A stretch of 64,000 nucleotides of DNA from Hufsiella arboris (GTDB lineage Bacteria > Bacteroidota > Bacteroidia > Sphingobacteriales > Sphingobacteriaceae): positions 1 to 64,000 of the forward strand of contig NZ_WVHT01000013.1 in assembly GCF_009834875.1 (NCBI RefSeq). Direction: 5' to 3'. Under the pieces are notes generated by a model. It ran no database searches, was not told where the DNA came from, and saw nothing but the letters and a program-made list of their open reading frames with translations. Positions 3,026 through 40,250 of the stretch are shown piece by piece (the first letter of the stretch is position 1; every line of letters begins with the position of its first letter). A program made the position numbers and the translations under genes.

Positions 3026-4399
3026 GTGATAAAAAGAATTGTTCCTCTTCTGGTTTTAGCTGTTGTCGCGATAGGTTCAATATTCATTCCTTCGGTTTCG
3101 GCATTTAGTGACGTTAGTAAGTATAACGGTGCCGACATCGCATGGGTTTTAGTTGCCACAGCATTAGTGTTTATTATGACGCCAGGTTTGGCTTTCTTTT
3201 ATGGGGGAATGGTTCACCGAAAAAATGTGCTGTCCACAATGATCAAGAGTGTGGTTGCGGCGGGCGTTGTAAGTGTTCTTTGGGTGGTTGTCGGTTTTAG
3301 CTTGTGTTTTGGTAAAAGCTATCATGGCGTTATCGGCGACCCTTCAACTTTTTTCTTTTTTAAAGGAGTGATGTCCGGCCAACCATGGAGTTTAGCGCCA
3401 ACTATTCCTTTGGCTTTGTATGTGCTTTTCCAATTAAAATTTGCTATTATAACTCCGGGTTTGGTTGTTGGTGCCGTTGCCGAACGGATCCGTTTCACAT
3501 CATACATATTATTTATTTTATTATTCAGCTTGCTTGTATACGCTCCACTTGCTCATTGGACATGGCATCCTGACGGATTTCTATTTAAGTGGGGTGTGTT
3601 AGACTTCGCAGGTGGAACCGTTGTTCATATTTCTGCTGGTTGCGCGGCTTTAGCAGGGGCCTTAGTTTTAAAGCGCCGAAAAGTTCATATTGAGCAAAAG
3701 GAAGTCCCTCCGGCAAATATTCCTTACGTACTTATTGGAACAGCGCTTCTCTGGTTTGGGTGGTTCGGATTTAATGCCGGGTCATCACTCGGTGCAAACG
3801 GTTTGGCGGTAGCAGCGTTCGCAACAACAAATACAGCTGCGGCTGCTGCCGGGATAGCCTGGATGTTTTTTGATGTCGCCCGCGGAAAAAAACCATCTGT
3901 TTTAGGATTTTGCATTGGGGCAGTTGTCGGGCTTGTAGCTATTACACCAGGTGCGGGTTTTGTGGCAGTGCCTCAAAGTATTTTTATCGGAGTTATCGCA
4001 TCTATTATATCCAATCTGGCGGTGCACTGGAAACATAAATCGCGATTGGACGATACGCTTGATGTTTTTCCATGTCACGGACTTGGCGGTATTGTAGGAA
4101 TGATTTTAACTGGAATTTTTGCTACCAAAACGGTTAATGCTGCTGGCAACGATGGCTTATTTTACGGAAACGCTGCCTTTTTCATTACACAGCTAAAAGC
4201 GTTAGCCATCGTGGTGGTATATAGTTTTACTGTATCATACGGCATTTTCAAGCTAATTAATCTGATACAACCGCTCAGGGTTTCAGAGCAGGAAGAAGAG
4301 CTCGGCCTTGACGCCACACAACATAATGAATCATACGCAACAGGATCTATAGTTATAACAGAAAGGGGAAACGCTATCGAAACAGAAATAATTCAATAA
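3026..4399 (+). CDS. amt: Ammonium transporter (Amt/MEP/Rh family)
   Basis: 457 aa inner-membrane ammonium channel. A GTG start at 3026 gives a cleavable signal-like segment (residues 1-26, ending SVSA), as in AmtB. The core has about 11 membrane segments. The conserved Asp and first pore His lie in DFAGGTVVH (D193, H201), and the second pore His is in DVFPCHGLGG (about H351). The periplasmic entrance FFYGGMV and the cytoplasmic tail LINLIQPLRVSEQEE also match. A porin gene follows 37 nt downstream with no promoter seen, suggesting an operon. A PII (glnK) gene, the usual neighbour, is absent here. Confidence 0.95.
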   Translation: MIKRIVPLLVLAVVAIGSIFIPSVSAFSDVSKYNGADIAWVLVATALVFIMTPGLAFFYGGMVHRKNVLSTMIKSVVAAGVVSVLWVVVGFSLCFGKSYHGVIGDPSTFFFFKGVMSGQPWSLAPTIPLALYVLFQLKFAIITPGLVVGAVAERIRFTSYILFILLFSLLVYAPLAHWTWHPDGFLFKWGVLDFAGGTVVHISAGCAALAGALVLKRRKVHIEQKEVPPANIPYVLIGTALLWFGWFGFNAGSSLGANGLAVAAFATTNTAAAAAGIAWMFFDVARGKKPSVLGFCIGAVVGLVAITPGAGFVAVPQSIFIGVIASIISNLAVHWKHKSRLDDTLDVFPCHGLGGIVGMILTGIFATKTVNAAGNDGLFYGNAAFFITQLKALAIVVVYSFTVSYGIFKLINLIQPLRVSEQEEELGLDATQHNESYATGSIVITERGNAIETEIIQ

Positions 4400-25116: not shown

Positions 25117-25182
25117 TAACATTACGATAATTGTTCCTTAATTAACATCTAATGTTCAGGTAACATTGCGGTAATACTTTTG
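25117..25182 (+). promoter_or_regulatory. PHO-box-like direct repeats plus -7 element
   Basis: TAA recurs at 25117, 25128, 25139, 25150, 25161 and 25172, exactly every 11 bp (for example TAACATTACGA, TAATTGTTCCT, TAACATTGCGG). PhoB-type response regulators bind 7-bp direct repeats with 4-bp spacers, that is, an 11-bp period. TACTTTTG at 25175-25182 is a perfect TAnnTTTG -7 element starting 14 nt after the fifth TAA. It puts transcription start downstream of the TTG at 25180 and so supports the GTG start at 25204. Confidence 0.7.
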
Positions 25183-25203
25183 GCAGGAACTAAACTAGCA
25201 AAA

Positions 25204-28014
25204 GTGAAATATCTTCTAAAACGCTCAGCGTTACTGGTACTCTTAACAGTGCTCGTAACCGTCGCCTTTGCCCAAACCGGAAAAATAACGGGTAAAGTAA
25301 CCGACAAAAAAACAGGTGAAACATTAATCGGCCTTTCTGTAAAACTCGACGGATCAGCGAAAGGTGCATCAACCGACGTAAGCGGCAATTATGCCTTAAC
25401 AGGACTGGCGCCCGGCAAGTACACGATTGTTTTTTCATATATCGGCTACCAGCCTAAACGTATTACGGATGTCGACGTTCAGAACGGTAAGCCGGCCATT
25501 GTGAATGTAGTAATGGAAGACGCACCGTCGCAACGATTGGCGGAAGTGGTCATTACTGCAACCGCAAGGCAGGAATCGGTGAATTCGTTGTATGCGGCGC
25601 AAAAGAACAGGGCCGTTATATCCGACGGTATTTCTTCGGATCAGATTACCAGAAGTCCGGATAAAAGTACTGGCGAAGTTTTGAAACGGGTTAGCGGTAC
25701 TACTATCCAGGACAATAAGTTCGTAATCGTTCGTGGTTTGGGCGACCGTTACAATAATGCCCGCTTAGACAATGCCAGCTTACCAAGTACAGAGGCAAAC
25801 CGGAAAGCGTTTTCTTTTGATATCGTTCCATCAAACCTGGTAGATAACATTGTGATTAGCAAAACCGCTACACCGGATCTTCCGGGAGATTTCGCTGGTG
25901 GTTCAGTACAGATCATCACCAGGGATATTCCAGCGCAGAACTTCTTCACGGTAAGTTTAGGAGCAGGTTACAATTCACAATCAACTTTTAAAGATTTCTA
26001 TTACGGGCCGAGATACCTTTCTGATTATTTCGCTTTCAATACAGAGCGACAATTGCCAACTACTGGCTTTCCAAAAAATACCAGCCAGACTTTGTCTCTA
26101 ACGCAGGAGCAAAGCACCGCTGCTATAAAAAAACTCCCTGGTGTATGGAACATCGGAAACTCGCTGGCAGCGCCATCGCAAAATCATCAGCTGAGTTTAG
26201 GGAGAGTTAAAGACTTTAACAATGGCGGGCGTTTCGGCGTGATTGCGTCGTTAACCTACCGTAATTCGCAAACAACGGTACCCGACGCGGAACGCACTTA
26301 TTTGTTTTATGACTATGATGATCGCGTTAACCAGTTTTCTACCGCGATTGGTGCACTGGCAAACCTTTCGTACACTAAAGGAAAAAATAAATTTAGCTTC
26401 AAGAATTTGTATAACCGGATTCTGGAAGACCGTTTTACCTATCGGGTAGGTTCTGATTTCACCCGCTCGAGTGATTTGCAGTACTATGCTTTTGATATGC
26501 TGCAAAAAGGTTTGTTGAAAACATCCGTGGAAGGTGAACATACACTCGGCGCGAATAAAAACAGGTTTACATGGAACCTGGCCTATTCAAATGTTATAAA
26601 CAATCAGCCGGATCAGCGAAAAATTGGTTACCAAAGAACAATTACAGACAGGGATAATCCAGAAGTGCCTTACCTGGCAAGTGTGCTTTCGATCAACAAG
26701 GAGAATAACAGGCTGTTTTCCGACCTGAAAGAAAATATCTATAACGGAGGTCTTAATTACCAGGTTCCGTTGAAGATTTCCAGTCAGCCTGCAACACTGA
26801 AATTAGGCGCCGGTACGCAGTATCGTACCCGCGATTTCGCCGCCAGATTGCTTGGCTCCGTACTAAACGGATTTGATGAGGATGTACAAACCCGCCCAAT
26901 AAATACTTTATATGGCAAAGACCTGGTAAACGCGAATTATTACAGGCTGGATGAAATCACAAGTTTAACCGACTCATACGATGCTAATTCCCTGACGAGC
27001 TTCGGTTACGCGATGCTGGACAATAAACTGGCAAATAAGTTGCGCGTTGTATGGGGGTTACGTGCTGAAAACTTTAACCTGAAACTTAATTCATTCCGTA
27101 CATCCGGCGAGCCTTTGAACGTAGAACGCAATGATTTAGACTTATTGCCGTCGGCCAACTTCACCTATGCCCTTACTCCAAAGTCTAATTTGAGAGCTTC
27201 TTATTACCGGACATTGGCAAGGCCGGAATTTACGGAACTTGCCCCATTCGCTTATTACGATTACGAAGTGTTGGCGGTAAGGCAGGGTAACGAGAATCTG
27301 AAAAGCACCAATATTGATAACGCCGACTTACGCTATGAACTTTATCCCGGAACCGGCCAGGTGTTTTCAGTATCAGCTTTTTACAAGCATTTCAACAATG
27401 CTATCGAGCCGAGCATTGATGATGTAAATTCAACGCCGACCATCTCTTACTACAACACGAAACAGGCGGTTAATTATGGTGCCGAACTTGAGTTCCGTCA
27501 CACGTTAGGCTTTTTGAAAGATAATTCCGAGTCGCTTAACAATACAACGATCTACGTGAACGGTGCTTACATTAAATCAAAGGTTAACAATCCTGCGAAT
27601 GCTGGTTACCTGCGCGATAATCGTCCAATGGTAGGCCAGTCGCCTTATACTATCAACGCAGGATTGCAATATAATGCGTTTCAAAACGCGCTGAATCTAA
27701 GTGTTCTTTATAACAGGATCGGCAAGCGTATCACTAGCGTGGGTGGTCAGCGCCTGGAAAACGTTTGGGAAAATCCGAGAAACGTTCTCGACTTCCAGGC
27801 GAACTACCGTGTGATTAAAGGTAAGGGACAGATCAAACTGAATGTAAGCGATATACTGAACAATCAGTCATTGTTCTACTTTGACTATGATGGAAATGGA
27901 AAATATACACCGTTACAGTCAGCCCCTGCAGATCCCAATATACGCCAGGATGAAGTGTTCTCACGTTTTAAGCGTGGCGTTGACGCTTCACTATCATTCT
28001 CTTATAATTTTTAA
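25204..28014 (+). CDS. TonB-dependent outer-membrane receptor with carboxypeptidase-regulatory-like domain
   Basis: From GTG 25204 it is 936 aa. The signal peptide is MKYLLKRSALLVLLTVLVTV ending AFAQ. An N-terminal beta-sandwich (GKITGKVTDKKTGETLIGLS, residues ~25-110) is followed by the plug (GEVLKRVSGTTIQDNKF, FVIVRGLGDRYNNA, GDFAGGSVQIITRD) and a 22-strand-type barrel ending FSYNF. Such receptors import large or scarce substrates using TonB energy. It is followed by a surface lipoprotein gene, a SusCD-like arrangement, and preceded by PHO-box-like repeats, which suggests uptake of a phosphorus-containing compound. Substrate is inferred only. Confidence 0.9.
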   Translation: MKYLLKRSALLVLLTVLVTVAFAQTGKITGKVTDKKTGETLIGLSVKLDGSAKGASTDVSGNYALTGLAPGKYTIVFSYIGYQPKRITDVDVQNGKPAIVNVVMEDAPSQRLAEVVITATARQESVNSLYAAQKNRAVISDGISSDQITRSPDKSTGEVLKRVSGTTIQDNKFVIVRGLGDRYNNARLDNASLPSTEANRKAFSFDIVPSNLVDNIVISKTATPDLPGDFAGGSVQIITRDIPAQNFFTVSLGAGYNSQSTFKDFYYGPRYLSDYFAFNTERQLPTTGFPKNTSQTLSLTQEQSTAAIKKLPGVWNIGNSLAAPSQNHQLSLGRVKDFNNGGRFGVIASLTYRNSQTTVPDAERTYLFYDYDDRVNQFSTAIGALANLSYTKGKNKFSFKNLYNRILEDRFTYRVGSDFTRSSDLQYYAFDMLQKGLLKTSVEGEHTLGANKNRFTWNLAYSNVINNQPDQRKIGYQRTITDRDNPEVPYLASVLSINKENNRLFSDLKENIYNGGLNYQVPLKISSQPATLKLGAGTQYRTRDFAARLLGSVLNGFDEDVQTRPINTLYGKDLVNANYYRLDEITSLTDSYDANSLTSFGYAMLDNKLANKLRVVWGLRAENFNLKLNSFRTSGEPLNVERNDLDLLPSANFTYALTPKSNLRASYYRTLARPEFTELAPFAYYDYEVLAVRQGNENLKSTNIDNADLRYELYPGTGQVFSVSAFYKHFNNAIEPSIDDVNSTPTISYYNTKQAVNYGAELEFRHTLGFLKDNSESLNNTTIYVNGAYIKSKVNNPANAGYLRDNRPMVGQSPYTINAGLQYNAFQNALNLSVLYNRIGKRITSVGGQRLENVWENPRNVLDFQANYRVIKGKGQIKLNVSDILNNQSLFYFDYDGNGKYTPLQSAPADPNIRQDEVFSRFKRGVDASLSFSYNF

Positions 28015-28022
28015 AAATAAGT

Positions 28023-28077
28023 TAACAAACACTTAACGTCATCTTGATGCTGAGTTTATCTCGCAGAACGAATTTTG
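28023..28077 (+). promoter_or_regulatory. PHO-box-like repeats before the lipoprotein gene
   Basis: TAACAAACACT (28023), TAACGTCATCT (28034), TGATGCTGAGT (28045) and TTATCTCGCAG (28056) repeat every 11 bp. GAATTTTG at 28070-28077 is a weak -7 element, 14 nt after the last unit start, the same offset as in the flanking genes. The later units have decayed, so this is the weakest of the three sites. Confidence 0.45.
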
Positions 28078-28108
28078 AACAATAAATTAATAGCAAACAA
28101 TAACAAAA

Positions 28109-29551
28109 ATGAAAAAACACTTAATTAAAGTTTTATTAGGATTATCATTGTTCTCGGCAGCATGCTCGAATAAAAATGATGATGAGCCTATACCGGAGCC
28201 ACCTGTAACAGGAAGTGTTGTGGAAGTTTCTGGTGACATTAAAGCAAATACTACCTGGACAGCAGATAAAATTTACTTATTAAAAGGATTTGTTTACGTA
28301 ACTGACGGCGCTACGCTAACCATTGAAGCAGGCACATTAATTAAAGGCGATAAAGCATCAAAAGCAACATTAGTTGTTACAAGAGGCGCGAAAATTAATG
28401 CAACCGGAACTGCTGATAAACCGATTGTATTTACATCAAACCAGGCAGCCGGCGCAAGAAGAGAAGGCGACTGGGGCGGAATTATCCTTTTGGGTAAAGC
28501 TCCGGTTAACCAGGCTGAAGGTGTTAAGATCGAAGGTGGGCTTGATGCTAAAAACGATCCTGCTAAATACATTCAGTATGGCGGGTCAGACGCGGCAGAC
28601 AATTCAGGCATTTTGAAATATGTACGTATCGAATTTGGAGGTATCCCTTTCTCAGTTGATAACGAGATTAATGGTTTAACAATGGGCGGCGTTGGTAATG
28701 GAACAACAATCGACTATGTTGAAGTTTACCGTTCAGGTGACGATGCTTTCGAATGGTTCGGCGGAACCGTTAACTGTAAACACCTTTTAGCTATCGGATC
28801 ATGGGATGATGATTTTGACACTGATTTTGGTTATTCTGGTAAAATACAGTTTGCATTGGCTCAGCGTTACCCTTTAGTTGCAGATCAGTCAGGCTCTAAC
28901 GGTTTTGAATCTGATAACGATGGTAACGGTTCGACGTTAACTCCTCAAACTTCAGCGGTATTCTCCAATGTTTCTATCGTTGGCCCATACGCTGACGCTA
29001 CTACTAAAGTTAATGGCTTCTTCCAGCATGCAGCACAAATAAGAAGGAATTCAGCAATCAGTGCATTTAACTCCGTATTCGCTGGTTTTCCCGAAGGAAT
29101 TTATATCGATAATGACACTAAAACTGCTGGCGCTGAAACTTATAATAACTACGCTGCAGGGAAACTAGTGTTCCAAAACAACCTGGTGTATGGTTGCAAT
29201 GCAAAGTCTAATGAAGTAAAAGGACAAAGTAAAGCATCTTTTGAAACACAGATCAGAACTGAGAACGTGTTTAATTCATCAAGCTATGCTAACGCTTTAA
29301 TCACTGATCCTTATAAATATCCTGCTGATATAGTTGCTTCGACTTCGGCAATGTTAGGTAGCCCTAATTTCACAGTAAAAGCAGGTACGCCATCTGAAAC
29401 AGGCGCAGCGTTTACTAATGCGAAATTAGCAGATGCTTTCTTTGAAAAAGTTACTTACAAAGGTGCTTTTGGCACAACTGACTGGTCTTCCGGCTGGGCT
29501 AACTATGCACCTCAGGCATTAGCTTACGATGCTCCGGGAAAAATAAAATAA
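28109..29551 (+). CDS. Beta-helix-like surface lipoprotein paired with the TonB receptor
   Basis: 480 aa. The lipobox ends FSAAC (Cys 19), followed by SNKNDDEP, an acidic region like the outer-surface export signal of Bacteroidota. The body reads as a right-handed beta-helix: DGATLTIEAGTLIKGDKASK, GTADKPIVFTSNQ, GDWGGIILLGKAP, LKYVRIEFGG, IDYVEVYRSGDDAFEWFGG. Acidic clusters (SWDDDFDTDFGYSG, ESDNDGNGS) could bind calcium. Placed 94 nt behind the TonB receptor, it probably acts as the substrate-binding partner, as SusD does, although it is not SusD-like in sequence. Confidence 0.8.
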   Translation: MKKHLIKVLLGLSLFSAACSNKNDDEPIPEPPVTGSVVEVSGDIKANTTWTADKIYLLKGFVYVTDGATLTIEAGTLIKGDKASKATLVVTRGAKINATGTADKPIVFTSNQAAGARREGDWGGIILLGKAPVNQAEGVKIEGGLDAKNDPAKYIQYGGSDAADNSGILKYVRIEFGGIPFSVDNEINGLTMGGVGNGTTIDYVEVYRSGDDAFEWFGGTVNCKHLLAIGSWDDDFDTDFGYSGKIQFALAQRYPLVADQSGSNGFESDNDGNGSTLTPQTSAVFSNVSIVGPYADATTKVNGFFQHAAQIRRNSAISAFNSVFAGFPEGIYIDNDTKTAGAETYNNYAAGKLVFQNNLVYGCNAKSNEVKGQSKASFETQIRTENVFNSSSYANALITDPYKYPADIVASTSAMLGSPNFTVKAGTPSETGAAFTNAKLADAFFEKVTYKGAFGTTDWSSGWANYAPQALAYDAPGKIK

Positions 29552-29582
29552 CATCATCATACGCTAATACATTTGTGAATTA

Positions 29583-29608
29583 AACCCTGCCGCGAGGCGG
29601 GTTTTTTT
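29583..29608 (+). terminator. Intrinsic terminator after the lipoprotein gene
   Basis: AACCCTGCC and GGCGGGTT pair around GCGA, followed by a run of T. It separates the receptor-lipoprotein pair from the next TonB receptor. Confidence 0.8.
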
Positions 29609-29701
29609 GTTTTACACGTTTCCTGCACATTTTTTATGTATTCACGATTTCTTCATAAAGCCATTTTAATTTTGCTTACCACCCGCTGTGTGCTTGGTTA
29701 A

Positions 29702-29803
29702 CTTAACGTAATCTTAGCATTGTCAGATTCTTACCATTTCGTTAAAAATGCATGAATGGTAATCATTTGTTAACATTGTCTTAATATCTCCGCCTCAATT
29801 TTG
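29702..29803 (+). promoter_or_regulatory. PHO-box-like repeats before the Oar-like receptor
   Basis: TAATCATTTGT (29760), TAACATTGTCT (29771) and TAATATCTCCG (29782) are exactly 11 bp apart, and CAATTTTG at 29796-29803 (near TAnnTTTG) starts 14 nt after the last unit. A second pair, TTAACGTAATC (29703) and TTAGCATTGTC (29714), lies 46 nt upstream. The layout repeats that at 25117-25182. Confidence 0.65.
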
Positions 29804-29822: not shown

Positions 29823-32800
29823 ATGAAAATTGTCAGATTTTTACTTATCACATTTATAAGCCTCGGCAGTTATGCTGGTTTATATGCACAGGTTACTACA
29901 TCCCAGATAAGCGGGAAAGTAATCGATGCTAAAGGCGAGGCATTACCAGGAGTATCAGTAAGCGTAGTCAATACGTCAACTGGTACCAAATACGGCGCAT
30001 CCACCAATGCTGACGGACGTTACACACTCACCAACATTAATCCTGGTGGCCCTTACACCATTACAGTTACTTATGTTGGTTTTACAAAACAGGAGTCCAA
30101 TGATGTTAACCTTGGCTTAGGAAGCACCACGCTTAACTTCGCTATGCAGCAGGAAGCTACCGCTTTGAAAGAAGTTGTTGTTAGTGGTGCTAACCGTACG
30201 GCAAGACGCAACGGAGCGGGTACCAATATCAGCCAGGCGCAGATTAAAACGCTGCCATCATTAAGCAGAAGCTTGCAGGATTTAACACGCGTAACTCCCC
30301 AAAGCAATAACAATTCTTTTTTAGGAACCAACTTCCGTTATAATAACGTAACGCTTGATGGCGCCATAAATAATGACGCGATCGGTTTTAGTCCATCGCA
30401 GGGAGGACAGACCAATACCTCCGGCCAGCCAGGCAGCAGTACCCGTACAAGCCCCGTTTCATTGGATGCAATTCAGGATATCCAGGTTTACCTTGCTCCC
30501 TACGATGTGAAGATCGGGAATTTTACAGGAGGTAGTATCAATGCCGTGACACGCAGCGGTACCAACAAAGTAAGCGGATCCGTTTACGGTTTTGGGCGTA
30601 ACTCTTCATTTATTGGACCCAATAATGCCGGCGACGGATCAAAAGAACCTAAAGGCTTTCATGAGTATCAAACCGGTGTCCGTTTAGGATTTCCTATTAT
30701 AAAAGATAAATTATTCTTCTTTACAAACGAAGAAATTACCCGTCGTAACGACCCGATAATACTTGGTGCCGGCTCGCCCGACATTTCCAAAGTGATCGAT
30801 TTGGCAAGCGCGCAAAAAATCAGCGACAGGTTGAGCAGCGTTTATGGAATTGACGCGGGTACTTATAATAACTACAAGATATTTTCGAACTCCAATAAAT
30901 TCTTTAACCGTTTAGACTGGAATATCAACGATAAAAACCAGTTATCTATCCGGAATAATACCATCACTTCAGAAGCTACCAACCTGGAGCGTGACCAGCA
31001 GAACTTCCGTTTCGGAGGGATTGATTACAAGCAAACCAACAATCAATCATCCACAGTTGCTGAATTGAAATCGAGAGTTTCGAATAACCTGTCGAACAGT
31101 TTTATCGCGGGGTACTCCGATATTCACGATTATCGTGATCCATTATCCAACGCCGCGGTTCCTCAACTCCAGATCACCGGCTTAACATCCGGAACAACGA
31201 TTTTCGCCGGAACAGACCGCGAGGCTAGTATCTTCAACATGAAGCAAAAAACGCTTGAGTTTACCGATAACCTGACATGGACAAAAGGAAATCATACGTT
31301 TACTTTCGGTACACACAACGAGCTTTACAACATTACTTACGGTTTTGTCAACTCGTGGAACGGTCGCGTGGATTATGCTTCCATTGCTGACTTCCTTAAT
31401 AACAATCCAAGCCGCGTTCGTACCAATTATAACTATTCAAATAACTCACGCGATAATATCATGAGTAATCCGCCAGCGGAGTTTAAAGTGAATATGTACA
31501 GCTTATATGCGCAGGATGATATTCAGATCGGCGATAAGTTGAAACTATCTCCCGGTATTCGTTTTGATTTGGCTGACCTGCCGAACATGCAGCCTTTAAG
31601 CGATAAAACTATAAATGCGCCGGTTGATCCCAATTACGGAACTACCTATACCTACACTCAACCGAAAAATATTAAGAATGATTTTTTTGGAAAAGTTCAG
31701 GTGTCGCCGCGCTTAGGATTTAATTACGACGTCAAAGGCGACCAAAGTGTGATCCTTCGCGGAGGAACCGGGTTATTTACCGGCCGGATTCCTTTTGCCT
31801 GGTTAGGATATGCTTATTATAACAATGGCGTAACCTACGGAGCTTATGACAACCGCTCGTCTTCGAAACCATTTGCCCCAGGTTCTGATCCTATCAGTGA
31901 TGGATTAACTGGAAATGGCGAGGCTGGCTTTGTTGCTGAGCAAGGCGTCAATACCAGCGATGCCAAAGGAGCTACCCAGGTGGATTTGATCGATAATAAT
32001 TTCAAAATGCCGCAAGCCTGGAGAAGCAGTCTTGGCCTGGATTATACCACATCAAATCAATGGAAATTTACGGTAGAAGGAATTTATACTAAAGTTATTA
32101 AAGACCTTCAGTTCCAGCAGGTAAATTACGTCGATAATCCCACTTACTTCGCTTACGATACACAACATCAGCAGCCAATTTATTCAGGAAGCAAAATCAA
32201 TCCTTTGTACACAAATGCTTACCTGCTTTCAAATACTGATAAAGGGTACCGTTATAGTATCACTGGCCAGGTTAGCCGCTCATTTCCTTTCGGTTTAGGT
32301 TTCATGGCCGCTTATACCTACGGACAATCGAAGGATATCACAAATGGTATTCGTAACTCGATGGAATCAAACTGGCAATTGAACCAGGCCCTGAATCCAA
32401 ACAGTCCGCAGCTTACATACTCCAACTTCGATGTGCGCAACCGGATCGTATCGTCTGTTAACTACCGACTTAACTGGAATAAGAAAAATAAATACATTTC
32501 TAACTTCTCGTTATTTGTTAGTGCACAGTCTGGCGCGCCGTTTTCATATGGTTTCGTAAATGCTACGATCGACGGAACTGGTCAGCAGGTTAGTTTGGTT
32601 TACATACCAAACGCGGGAGAAACTTCAAAATTCTTCGCTGATATTCCCGGCGGAAAAACTGCGGTTCAACAAGCCTCAGAGTTTGATAACTATATCAACA
32701 ACAATAAATACCTGAACGGTAGAAGAGGGGATTTCACCGAGCGTAACGGCGGTCGCACGCCATGGAACACTCAGGCAGATTTCCGTTTCTCCCAGGATTT

Positions 32801-33086
32801 CGTTATCAATAAGAAACATACCGTTACTTTTACATACGATATCGTTAACCTTACAAACCTGTTAAATAAGGATTGGGGTATTCAATATTTCTCTCCAAAC
32901 ACCTTTAACTCAATGGCTGGTGTTGGTTTGAAACAAACGACTGTTAAAAATGCAGCGGGAGCAACTGTTCCGTTAGTAGTAAACGGATATCCGGCTTATA
33001 CGTGGTCAGATCCGGGAACTCCTTACTCAAAAGATTTCTTTGCATCACGTTATCAGATGCAACTGGGATTAAGGTATTCGTTCTAA
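29823..33086 (+). CDS. Oar-like TonB-dependent receptor
   Basis: 1087 aa. Signal peptide 1-22 (ending GLYAQ), then the regulatory-like domain (SQISGKVIDAKGEALPGVSV), then an OmpA-related/Oar-type plug: VTLDGAINNDAIGF, LDAIQDIQVYLAPYDVKIGN, FTGGSINAVTRSGTNK. The barrel ends in LGLRYSF. This subtype lacks a dedicated SusD partner. It has its own PHO-box-like promoter and a strong terminator, so it is monocistronic but probably co-regulated with the receptor-lipoprotein pair upstream. Confidence 0.9.
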   Translation: MKIVRFLLITFISLGSYAGLYAQVTTSQISGKVIDAKGEALPGVSVSVVNTSTGTKYGASTNADGRYTLTNINPGGPYTITVTYVGFTKQESNDVNLGLGSTTLNFAMQQEATALKEVVVSGANRTARRNGAGTNISQAQIKTLPSLSRSLQDLTRVTPQSNNNSFLGTNFRYNNVTLDGAINNDAIGFSPSQGGQTNTSGQPGSSTRTSPVSLDAIQDIQVYLAPYDVKIGNFTGGSINAVTRSGTNKVSGSVYGFGRNSSFIGPNNAGDGSKEPKGFHEYQTGVRLGFPIIKDKLFFFTNEEITRRNDPIILGAGSPDISKVIDLASAQKISDRLSSVYGIDAGTYNNYKIFSNSNKFFNRLDWNINDKNQLSIRNNTITSEATNLERDQQNFRFGGIDYKQTNNQSSTVAELKSRVSNNLSNSFIAGYSDIHDYRDPLSNAAVPQLQITGLTSGTTIFAGTDREASIFNMKQKTLEFTDNLTWTKGNHTFTFGTHNELYNITYGFVNSWNGRVDYASIADFLNNNPSRVRTNYNYSNNSRDNIMSNPPAEFKVNMYSLYAQDDIQIGDKLKLSPGIRFDLADLPNMQPLSDKTINAPVDPNYGTTYTYTQPKNIKNDFFGKVQVSPRLGFNYDVKGDQSVILRGGTGLFTGRIPFAWLGYAYYNNGVTYGAYDNRSSSKPFAPGSDPISDGLTGNGEAGFVAEQGVNTSDAKGATQVDLIDNNFKMPQAWRSSLGLDYTTSNQWKFTVEGIYTKVIKDLQFQQVNYVDNPTYFAYDTQHQQPIYSGSKINPLYTNAYLLSNTDKGYRYSITGQVSRSFPFGLGFMAAYTYGQSKDITNGIRNSMESNWQLNQALNPNSPQLTYSNFDVRNRIVSSVNYRLNWNKKNKYISNFSLFVSAQSGAPFSYGFVNATIDGTGQQVSLVYIPNAGETSKFFADIPGGKTAVQQASEFDNYINNNKYLNGRRGDFTERNGGRTPWNTQADFRFSQDFVINKKHTVTFTYDIVNLTNLLNKDWGIQYFSPNTFNSMAGVGLKQTTVKNAAGATVPLVVNGYPAYTWSDPGTPYSKDFFASRYQMQLGLRYSF

Positions 33087-38342: not shown

Positions 38343-38415
<73 letters not shown>

Positions 38416-38492
38416 CTTTTTGATTTTAGATTGAAGATTTTTTTGATTTACGGTTTAAATCGTAAATCTGAAATTATAAATCTCTGATCATT

Positions 38493-38573
38493 GGGGGGAT
38501 ACCAGAGCGGTCAAATGGGACGGACTGTAAATCCGTTGCTTCGGCTACGAAGGTTCGAATCCTTCTCCCCCCA
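38493..38573 (+). tRNA. tRNA-Tyr (anticodon GTA)
   Basis: 81 nt with a long variable arm (class II), as expected for bacterial Tyr. The acceptor GGGGGGA pairs with TCCCCCC. The anticodon region ACTGTAAAT carries GTA. The T-arm GAAGGTTCGAATCCTTC is intact. Confidence 0.95.
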
Positions 38574-38652
38574 CAATATTGATTTTAGATTAATGATTAC
38601 TATTGATTGTCGTATCGCTTGTAATTCAAAAATCATAAATCTGAATACAGAA

Positions 38653-38725
38653 GCGGAAGTAGCTCAGTTGGTAGAGCGATAGCCTTCCAAGCTATAGGTC
38701 GCGAGTTCGAACCTCGTCTTCCGCT
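38653..38725 (+). tRNA. tRNA-Gly (anticodon TCC)
   Basis: 73 nt. The acceptor GCGGAAG pairs with CTTCCGC and the anticodon loop CTTCCAA carries TCC. D-arm and T-arm (GCGAGTTCGAACCTCG) are regular. Confidence 0.95.
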
Positions 38726-38786
38726 CAATGAGCTAATCGTAGTTAATGGCAAAGGAAACTTAGCTGTTAACTGTTTAGCGTTAAAA

Positions 38787-38858
<72 letters not shown>

Positions 38859-38915
38859 CAGGTTGCATTTAATTCAAACAATAAATATAAATAACCTACT
38901 AATAAGTATAAAAAA

Positions 38916-40103
38916 ATGGCAAAAGAAAAATTTGACCGCAGTAAGCCGCACTTAAACATCGGTACTATCGGTCACGTTGACCACGGTAAAACAACTTTAA
39001 CTGCCGCTATTACAAAAGTATTGGCTGATGCAGGTTTATCTGAAGCTCGTTCTTTCGATTCAATCGACTCAGCTCCTGAAGAAAAAGAAAGAGGTATCAC
39101 TATTAATACAGCACACGTTGAGTACTCAACTGCTAACCGTCACTATGCTCACGTTGACTGTCCAGGTCACGCTGACTATGTGAAGAACATGGTTACAGGT
39201 GCTGCTCAAATGGATGGTGCTATCCTTGTAGTTGCTTCTACGGATGGTCCGATGCCACAAACTCGCGAGCACATCCTTTTGGCTCGTCAGGTAGGTGTAC
39301 CAGCGCTTGTTGTTTTCATGAACAAAGTGGATATGGTTGACGATCCGGAATTATTGGAACTTGTTGAAATGGAAATCCGTGAATTATTATCATTCTACGA
39401 ATTCCCAGGCGATGATATTCCAGTAGTACAAGGTTCAGCACTTGGTGGTTTGAACGGAGATGCTAAATGGGTTGGAAAAATCATGGAGCTAATGGATGCT
39501 GTAGATAACTACATTCCAATTCCTCCACGTTTGACTGAGCTTCCATTCTTGATGCCAGTTGAGGACGTATTCTCAATCACTGGTCGTGGTACAGTAGCAA
39601 CTGGCCGTATCGAGCGTGGTGTAATCAACTCAGGTGAGCCGGTTGAAATCCTTGGTATGGGTGCTGAGAACTTGAAATCAACTGTAACAGGTGTTGAGAT
39701 GTTTCGTAAGATCCTTGACAGAGGTGAAGCAGGTGACAACGTAGGTTTATTGTTACGTGGTATTGAGAAAACTGATATCCGTCGTGGTATGGTTATCTGT
39801 AAACCAGGTTCAGTAACTCCTCACACAGATTTCAAAGCTGAGGTTTACGTATTGTCAAAAGCAGAAGGTGGCCGTCACACTCCATTCTTCAACAAATACC
39901 GCCCGCAATTCTATTTCCGTACTACAGACGTAACTGGTGAAATTTCACTAGCTGAAGGTGTAGAAATGGTTATGCCTGGTGATAACGTTACAATCACTGT
40001 TAAGTTGATCAACGCTATCGCGATGGAAAAAGGTCTTCGTTTCGCTATCCGTGAAGGTGGCAGAACCGTAGGTGCTGGTCAGGTAACTGAAATTTTAAAA
40101 TAA
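38916..40103 (+). CDS. tuf: Elongation factor Tu
   Basis: 395 aa GTPase that brings aminoacyl-tRNA to the ribosome. P-loop GHVDHGKTT, switch [10 protein letters not shown], the NKVDM specificity motif and the beta-barrel domains 2 and 3 are all present and full length. It lies directly behind four tRNA genes and before tRNA-Trp and secE, a common bacterial layout. Codon use is strongly biased, as expected for a highly expressed gene. Confidence 0.99.
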
Positions 40104-40135
40104 TTCTAGCCTTTTAGGATAGAAAAGTATACTCA

Positions 40136-40165
40136 AAGTACTCAGATTTATTTCTGGGTACTTTG
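40136..40165 (+). terminator. Hairpin after tuf, possible terminator or attenuator
   Basis: AAAGTACTCAGA and TCTGGGTACTTT pair (one wobble) with a 6-nt loop. The tail GTTATCTAAAA is weak in U, so it may only partly stop transcription ahead of tRNA-Trp and secE. Confidence 0.5.
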
Positions 40166-40179
40166 TTATCTAAAAACAC

Positions 40180-40250
40180 ACGGGAATAGTTCAACGGTAG
40201 AATAGAGGTCTCCAAAACCTTTGATCAGGGTTCGAATCCTTGTTCCCGTG
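40180..40250 (+). tRNA. tRNA-Trp (anticodon CCA)
   Basis: 71 nt. The acceptor ACGGGAA pairs with TTCCCGT, followed by the G discriminator typical of Trp. The anticodon loop CTCCAAA carries CCA. It is 17 nt upstream of secE. Confidence 0.95.

Follow-up and report, generated by a model that had tools for sequence, protein, structure and literature searches.

Putative PHO boxes in fixed register with the -7 element precede three adjacent outer-membrane uptake genes of Hufsiella arboris

A stretch of 64,000 nt from the Hufsiella arboris genome (contig NZ_WVHT01000013.1, positions 1 to 64,000; hereafter the window, to the whole of which positions refer) carries three adjacent genes for outer-membrane uptake, encoding a TonB-dependent receptor (gene 1), a surface lipoprotein (gene 2) and an Oar-like receptor (gene 3). 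Each gene is preceded by an array of short units repeated every 11 bp. These three arrays are very probably PHO boxes of a Bacteroidota type, that is, putative docking sites for a phosphate regulator of the PhoB type. This reading rests on the presence of the same repeats, equally far from the -7 element, before genes for phosphate transport, polyphosphate and phosphatases here and in relatives. Tandem repeats of 11 nt were found, as were phosphate genes and the regulator's own gene downstream of such repeats and a fixed placement relative to the core promoter. The arrays are as follows.

25117..25182, forward strand: PHO-box-like array of gene 1 with six 11-bp TAA(C/T) units, and -7 element TACTTTTG (TonB receptor promoter)
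28023..28077, forward strand: PHO-box-like array of gene 2, partly decayed, with units at 28023, 28034, 28045 and 28056, and -7 element GAATTTTG
29760..29803, forward strand: PHO-box-like array of gene 3 with three units, at 29760, 29771 and 29782, and -7 element CAATTTTG

The positions of units and -7 elements were read directly, and the spacing between them was counted from unit start to -7 start. The genes begin at 25204, 28109 and 29823, and their -7 elements resemble TAnnTTTG. In front of gene 1, TAAC or TAAT units start at 25117, 25128, 25139, 25150, 25161 and 25172. The -7 element TACTTTTG occupies 25175-25182, 14 nt from the start of the fifth unit, while the sixth begins 3 nt before it and runs into it. 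Gene 2 has two good units (TAAC at 28023 and 28034) and two decayed ones (TGAT at 28045 and TTAT at 28056), with GAATTTTG at 28070-28077, 14 nt from the start of the fourth. Like gene 2, gene 3 has its -7 element (CAATTTTG, 29796-29803) 14 nt from the start of its last unit, here the third (29782). An earlier sequence-only reading had described TAA-led units every 11 bp before the three genes, which direct reading confirmed. Its statement that the -7 element begins exactly 14 nt after the last counted unit is correct for genes 2 and 3, but in gene 1 the unit concerned is the fifth and not the sixth.

Runs of at least five TAAY units, with any period from 6 to 21, were found in the window only at the array of gene 1. 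When the window was shuffled 200 times with dinucleotides preserved and searched with periods of 5 to 30, the longest run was three or, rarely, four units, and a run of six never appeared. Matches of three units with period 11 numbered five in the window compared with 0-2 in the shuffles.

For comparison, 80 named loci (1.2 Mb in all) were fetched, the closest of which come from Pedobacter and Mucilaginibacter. In the closest of the 80 loci the spectrum of distances (lags) between TAA triplets peaks overwhelmingly at 11. TAA-TAA pairs at this lag numbered 147 against 12 expected in the receptor promoters (z 45), 58 against 13 in the lipoprotein promoters (z 11.5) and 26 against 3 in the Oar-like promoters (z 17). 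Arrays were present upstream of 31 of about 35 receptor orthologues, with as many as about eight units in a row in the receptor promoters of Pedobacter and Chitinophaga. Matches to the lipoprotein were found in 56 of 60 relatives, and in most members of the family the short intergenic region upstream of it contains TAA units phased at 11 bp. The sequence of the units is specific (TTAAC/TATT), being conserved beyond TAA.

The register between array and promoter is conserved as well. With the arrays defined independently of the -7 element, a -7 element ending in TTTG starts 3, 14, 25 or 36 nt past the last unit, which is one helical phase, in 29 of 31 receptor, 9 of 10 lipoprotein and all five Oar-like promoters. 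Over the 1.2 Mb of related loci, two units followed by a -7 element occurred 77 times at a spacing of 14 and 96 times at a spacing of 25, compared with 6-21 times at each other spacing within 8-26, so that 14 or 14+11 nt is the only preferred spacing. The same 14 nt was seen by inspection in Hymenobacter and Larkinella, which are outside the family. As a separate observation, the receptor array of two Pedobacter species (L174, L185) is preceded by TAAAACGG-like units, which also have an 11-bp period and differ in sequence.

An independent model was trained on sequence alone, with 26 uptake-gene promoters (all three genes) from other genomes as input and the H. arboris genome and every phoB, ppk and pit promoter excluded, and was used to scan the 4.80-Mb genome of the window. 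Six matches had an expectation value (E) below 0.01. The best was the gene 1 promoter (E 2.7e-7), followed by a site before a DUF47 gene and then the gene of a Pit (PHO4) phosphate transporter (E 1.2e-6), the gene 3 promoter (E 4e-5), a DUF2490 gene (E 3.6e-4), a site without a gene (E 1.3e-3) and a calcineurin-like phosphoesterase (E 0.008). Lower in the list, which past an E of about 0.1 includes chance matches, are a second DUF47 gene (E 0.13), ppk1, which is followed by a Ppx/GppA-type gene (E 0.14-0.22), and a PlcP-like phosphoesterase with a glycosyltransferase (E 0.48). The column-reversed model gave a best E of 0.53. In each of five other genomes the receptor promoter was the top match and the DUF47-Pit promoter was matched too (5/5); further matches there were PlcP, a glycerophosphodiester phosphodiesterase (GDPD), an S41 peptidase and a beta-propeller protein. 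In the ppk1 promoters of relatives, 11 is the commonest of all lags.

The genome has nine OmpR-type regulators, and PhoB (TIGR02154) is the best family for the one encoded at C12:539531. Its orthologues across the family are mostly 78-89% identical, and nearly all of those examined have upstream the sequence TTAACAATTTNTTAATATTNNCTTAAC, which consists of three 11-bp units. In the phoB upstream regions, pairs at lag 11 numbered 65 against 11 expected (z 17). Among the nine OmpR-type loci, a conserved own array was found only at the PhoB-like gene, the other model match being one weak site (L061) inside a neighbouring reading frame. A candidate partner for this regulator is the kinase encoded directly upstream of DUF47-Pit (C1; L298 3595-6379), whose best families are PnpS/PhoR, below cut-off, and which has the same place in 5 of 5 relatives. 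Kinase and regulator are encoded on different contigs in this genome, and we tie them together because a homologue of the kinase adjoins phoB in Chryseobacterium and Kaistella.

The sequence-only reading had proposed a shared regulator of the OmpR/PhoB type, and this proposal stands. The fixed placement against the -7 element, from which it had argued for contact with sigma, holds as a placement, with a register of 14 or 14+11 nt. It had also expected a motif scan to find pho/pst, phosphatase and polyphosphate genes. Sites did appear before DUF47-Pit, phosphoesterase and ppk1 genes, but no classical Pst-PhoU system was seen, PhoU being missing and the site upstream of the operon with the only PstS-like gene unconserved.

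Several results weigh against a PhoB assignment. The PhoB-like regulator scores 227 bits where 296 are needed and so falls below the NCBIfam equivalog cut-offs, it adjoins no kinase here, unlike in Flavobacteriia, and the match before its own gene is individually not significant (E 0.6). PhoU (PF01895) is absent from the genome, which is 99.97% complete, and the control search for it was positive in 13 of 14 genomes. Of the scan matches at E <1, about half have no evident link to phosphate. The gene 2 array is the weakest of the three; its E of 0.16 in the genome scan (0.0022 within the window) is individually not significant, and its support comes mainly from orthologues. Finally, the bare pattern TAAY-N7-TAAY-N7-TAAY has 25 matches genome-wide compared with 20 for the reversed control, no clear enrichment, and we rejected it as a detector, being too weak alone. 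Phasing is therefore informative only in combination with conservation, the -7 register or a longer array, each of which was tested and holds.

Some of these results would also suit another OmpR-family regulator that binds the arrays, answers to some other signal such as metal or envelope stress and has phosphate genes as a minority of its targets. The genome has nine OmpR-type regulators, the 11-bp direct-repeat spacing is common to the whole subfamily, and the DUF2490 gene, the gene-less site and further scan matches have no phosphate link. However, only the PhoB-like gene is preceded by its own conserved array; Pit, phosphoesterases, ppk1 and PlcP head the scan matches, and PhoB adjoins the receptor pair in other lineages. 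We regard this explanation as improbable. A purely structural role of the phased TAA steps (as intrinsic curvature, or as an UP-like or nucleoid-protein site) that boosts the promoter with no specific regulator is very unlikely. The units are A+T-rich and in helical phase and the array abuts the core promoter, as would suit such a role, but the unit sequence is specific, and phased arrays track phosphate genes, none being seen before exbB of relatives. A chance origin, or an artefact of intergenic DNA rich in A+T, would explain why the three-unit pattern alone is about as frequent as its reverse, but can safely be dismissed in view of the shuffles, the lag spectra, the register, the reversed-motif control and, above all, the conservation in orthologues, which refutes it.

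The arrays as PHO boxes suggest the following mechanism, in which we infer the binding of PhoB, its contact with sigma, the response to phosphate and the pairing of kinase and regulator, while the sequence of the arrays, their phasing, register and conservation and the genes in their company are observed. Under phosphate limitation, the PhoR-like kinase beside the DUF47-Pit operon would phosphorylate the PhoB-like regulator. Phosphorylated PhoB would then bind head-to-tail on the TTAAC/TAT-type units, which are 11 bp or about one helical turn apart, with the promoter-proximal unit starting 14 nt upstream of the TAnnTTTG -7 element. In this position PhoB would cover the place of the -33 element and could thus bring in the primary sigma factor. 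A phosphate-scavenging regulon would then comprise the three genes of the window along with Pit-DUF47, the phosphoesterases, lipid remodelling by PlcP-glycosyltransferase, ppk1 and phoB.

How the signal reaches the kinase is a more speculative matter. A pst operon with PstS was not seen, although PstA, PstB and PstC were not searched for; the sole PstS-like (PBP_like_2) protein is the product of the last gene of an exbB-type operon (L070/L019, C45:61296-65449). The site before this operon (C45:61296), with three units and CAAATTTG at +14, was rejected as a chance match, as its relatives have no phasing. The kinase lies beside DUF47-Pit, which is driven by a putative PHO box, this arrangement is conserved in five relatives and there is no PhoU, which suggests that the kinase gets its information from Pit/DUF47 and not from Pst/PhoU. 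It is conceivable, if still doubtful, that the Pho regulon here does without both PhoU and a classical Pst, that Pit and DUF47 relay the signal to the PhoR-like kinase, and that long arrays of up to about eight units act as cooperative and perhaps switch-like platforms held in register with the Bacteroidota -7 element.

PHO boxes are known as tandem 11-nt direct-repeat units whose consensus differs among species (PMC4415409), and the arrays are very probably a Bacteroidota version of this element. Like the boxes of Escherichia coli PhoB and of Bacillus and Streptomyces PhoP, which have at least two tandem 11-nt units (7 conserved and 4 loose positions) upstream of phosphate genes (PMC4415409), they are direct repeats. 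Unlike those, they have the consensus TTAAC/TAT instead of CTGTCAT or GTTCACC, contain three to about eight units, and have the proximal unit 14 nt before a TAnnTTTG -7 element and not a -10 hexamer. Within the phylum, PhoP of Riemerella anatipestifer binds in vitro a motif with the core TTTAACA, which matches the TTAACA units here, and that system, with autoregulation and a TonB receptor among its targets, resembles the one proposed here; in the accessible part of that report, however, the motif is presented as ArcA-like, with 583 places, and no 11-bp arrays or -7 register are described (PMC9603813). PhoB of Bacteroides fragilis binds the pst promoter, the accessible part of the report not giving the box sequence (PMC3547664). 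We found no published Bacteroidota PHO box with an 11-bp array and a -7 register in a search that covered few subscription papers.

Flavobacterium johnsoniae provides the closest parallel for the genes themselves (PMC8115612). Homologues of such genes are induced there only by depletion of inorganic phosphate, and the pectin-lyase-fold lipoproteins FI and FII are made abundantly under phosphate starvation, beside TonB receptors. The loci PUS III and PUS IV, the latter beside phoBR, pair a TonB receptor with a beta-helix lipoprotein FI or FII. An orphan CarboxypepD_reg receptor (Fjoh_3841), PlcP, a glycosyltransferase and an S41 peptidase are likewise induced by phosphate starvation. The likeness to the Fjoh proteins is one of domains and context, not of alignment. 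In contrast to the present arrays, no cis-regulatory site is given in the main text of that paper, which has 0 mentions of 'Pho box' or 'promoter'. The same authors relate FI and FII to the phosphate-starvation lipoprotein ElpS of Caulobacter, which is believed to activate an extracellular phosphatase (PMC2996285).

The three genes of the window are the following.

25204..28014, forward strand: TonB-dependent receptor (gene 1), CarboxypepD_reg, Plug and beta-barrel (Pfam PF13715/PF07715/PF00593), GTG start
28109..29551, forward strand: surface lipoprotein (gene 2), predicted right-handed beta-helix (pectate-lyase/tailspike-like)
29823..33086, forward strand: Oar-like TonB-type outer-membrane receptor (gene 3), Pfam PF13620 and PF25183

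For gene 1 the GTG at 25204 was taken as start codon, as the TTG at 25180 is an unlikely one because the -7 element occupies 25175-25182. The lipoprotein gave no match in a Pfam search. Its AlphaFold2 model has a confidence (pLDDT) of 91 and is matched by Foldseek to tailspikes, pectate lyases and alginate enzymes, and a right-handed beta-helix is thus predicted with high confidence. Such a fold agrees with FI and FII of F. johnsoniae, which are related to ElpS, and a role of the window trio in the capture of organic phosphorus at the cell surface is therefore likely by analogy.

Homologues of the receptor are paired with the lipoprotein throughout Bacteroidota, and the Oar-like gene follows this pair in Pedobacter, Mucilaginibacter, Chitinophaga and Hymenobacter. 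In the window, as in PUS III/IV-type loci, a receptor is followed by a beta-helix lipoprotein, and adjacency to phoB occurs only in other lineages. In Chryseobacterium and Kaistella the pair and PhoB-PhoR are divergently oriented, in Chitinophaga the pair adjoins Pit-DUF47 and PlcP, and in one Sphingobacterium and other genomes it adjoins ppk1. A metagenome-assembled genome of Bacteroidia (L220) has PhoB, receptor, lipoprotein, PlcP-glycosyltransferase and DUF47-Pit-kinase within 17 kb.

Two of the scan matches deserve separate mention. The DUF2490 protein (L067 9703-10419; C56:134647), to which no function is assigned, has a near-perfect array and may belong to the phosphate regulon. The site without a gene (L302 about 3440-3590; C54:272036-272087, minus strand) is a strong array of three units with TAGCTTTG exactly 14 nt on; no reading frame lies downstream, and a bidirectional terminator follows after about 75-80 nt. 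Either this is a chance match, or it drives an unannotated small RNA that responds to phosphate. At 1989-2084 of L302 there is a Flavo-1 RNA (Rfam RF01705) upstream of a thioredoxin reductase gene. The Rfam search of the window itself matched only tRNAs, and five tRNA genes are grouped there in the usual arrangement around the elongation factor Tu gene (38343-40250).

Bacteroidota are major recyclers of phosphorus in soil and sea. What is known of their phosphate regulon comes from expression data, and in the literature searched no cis-regulatory code with this geometry has been described. A PHO box in fixed register with the unusual -7 promoter of the phylum would make the regulon readable from any genome, and would place the receptor-lipoprotein-Oar trio and other genes of unassigned role in phosphorus scavenging. 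The arrays would also offer a natural set of promoters for studying the contact of an OmpR-type activator with the sigma factor of Bacteroidota and the reason why as many as six to eight units occur at some targets. With PhoU absent and a PhoR-like kinase lying beside DUF47-Pit, phosphate sensing in these bacteria becomes directly testable.

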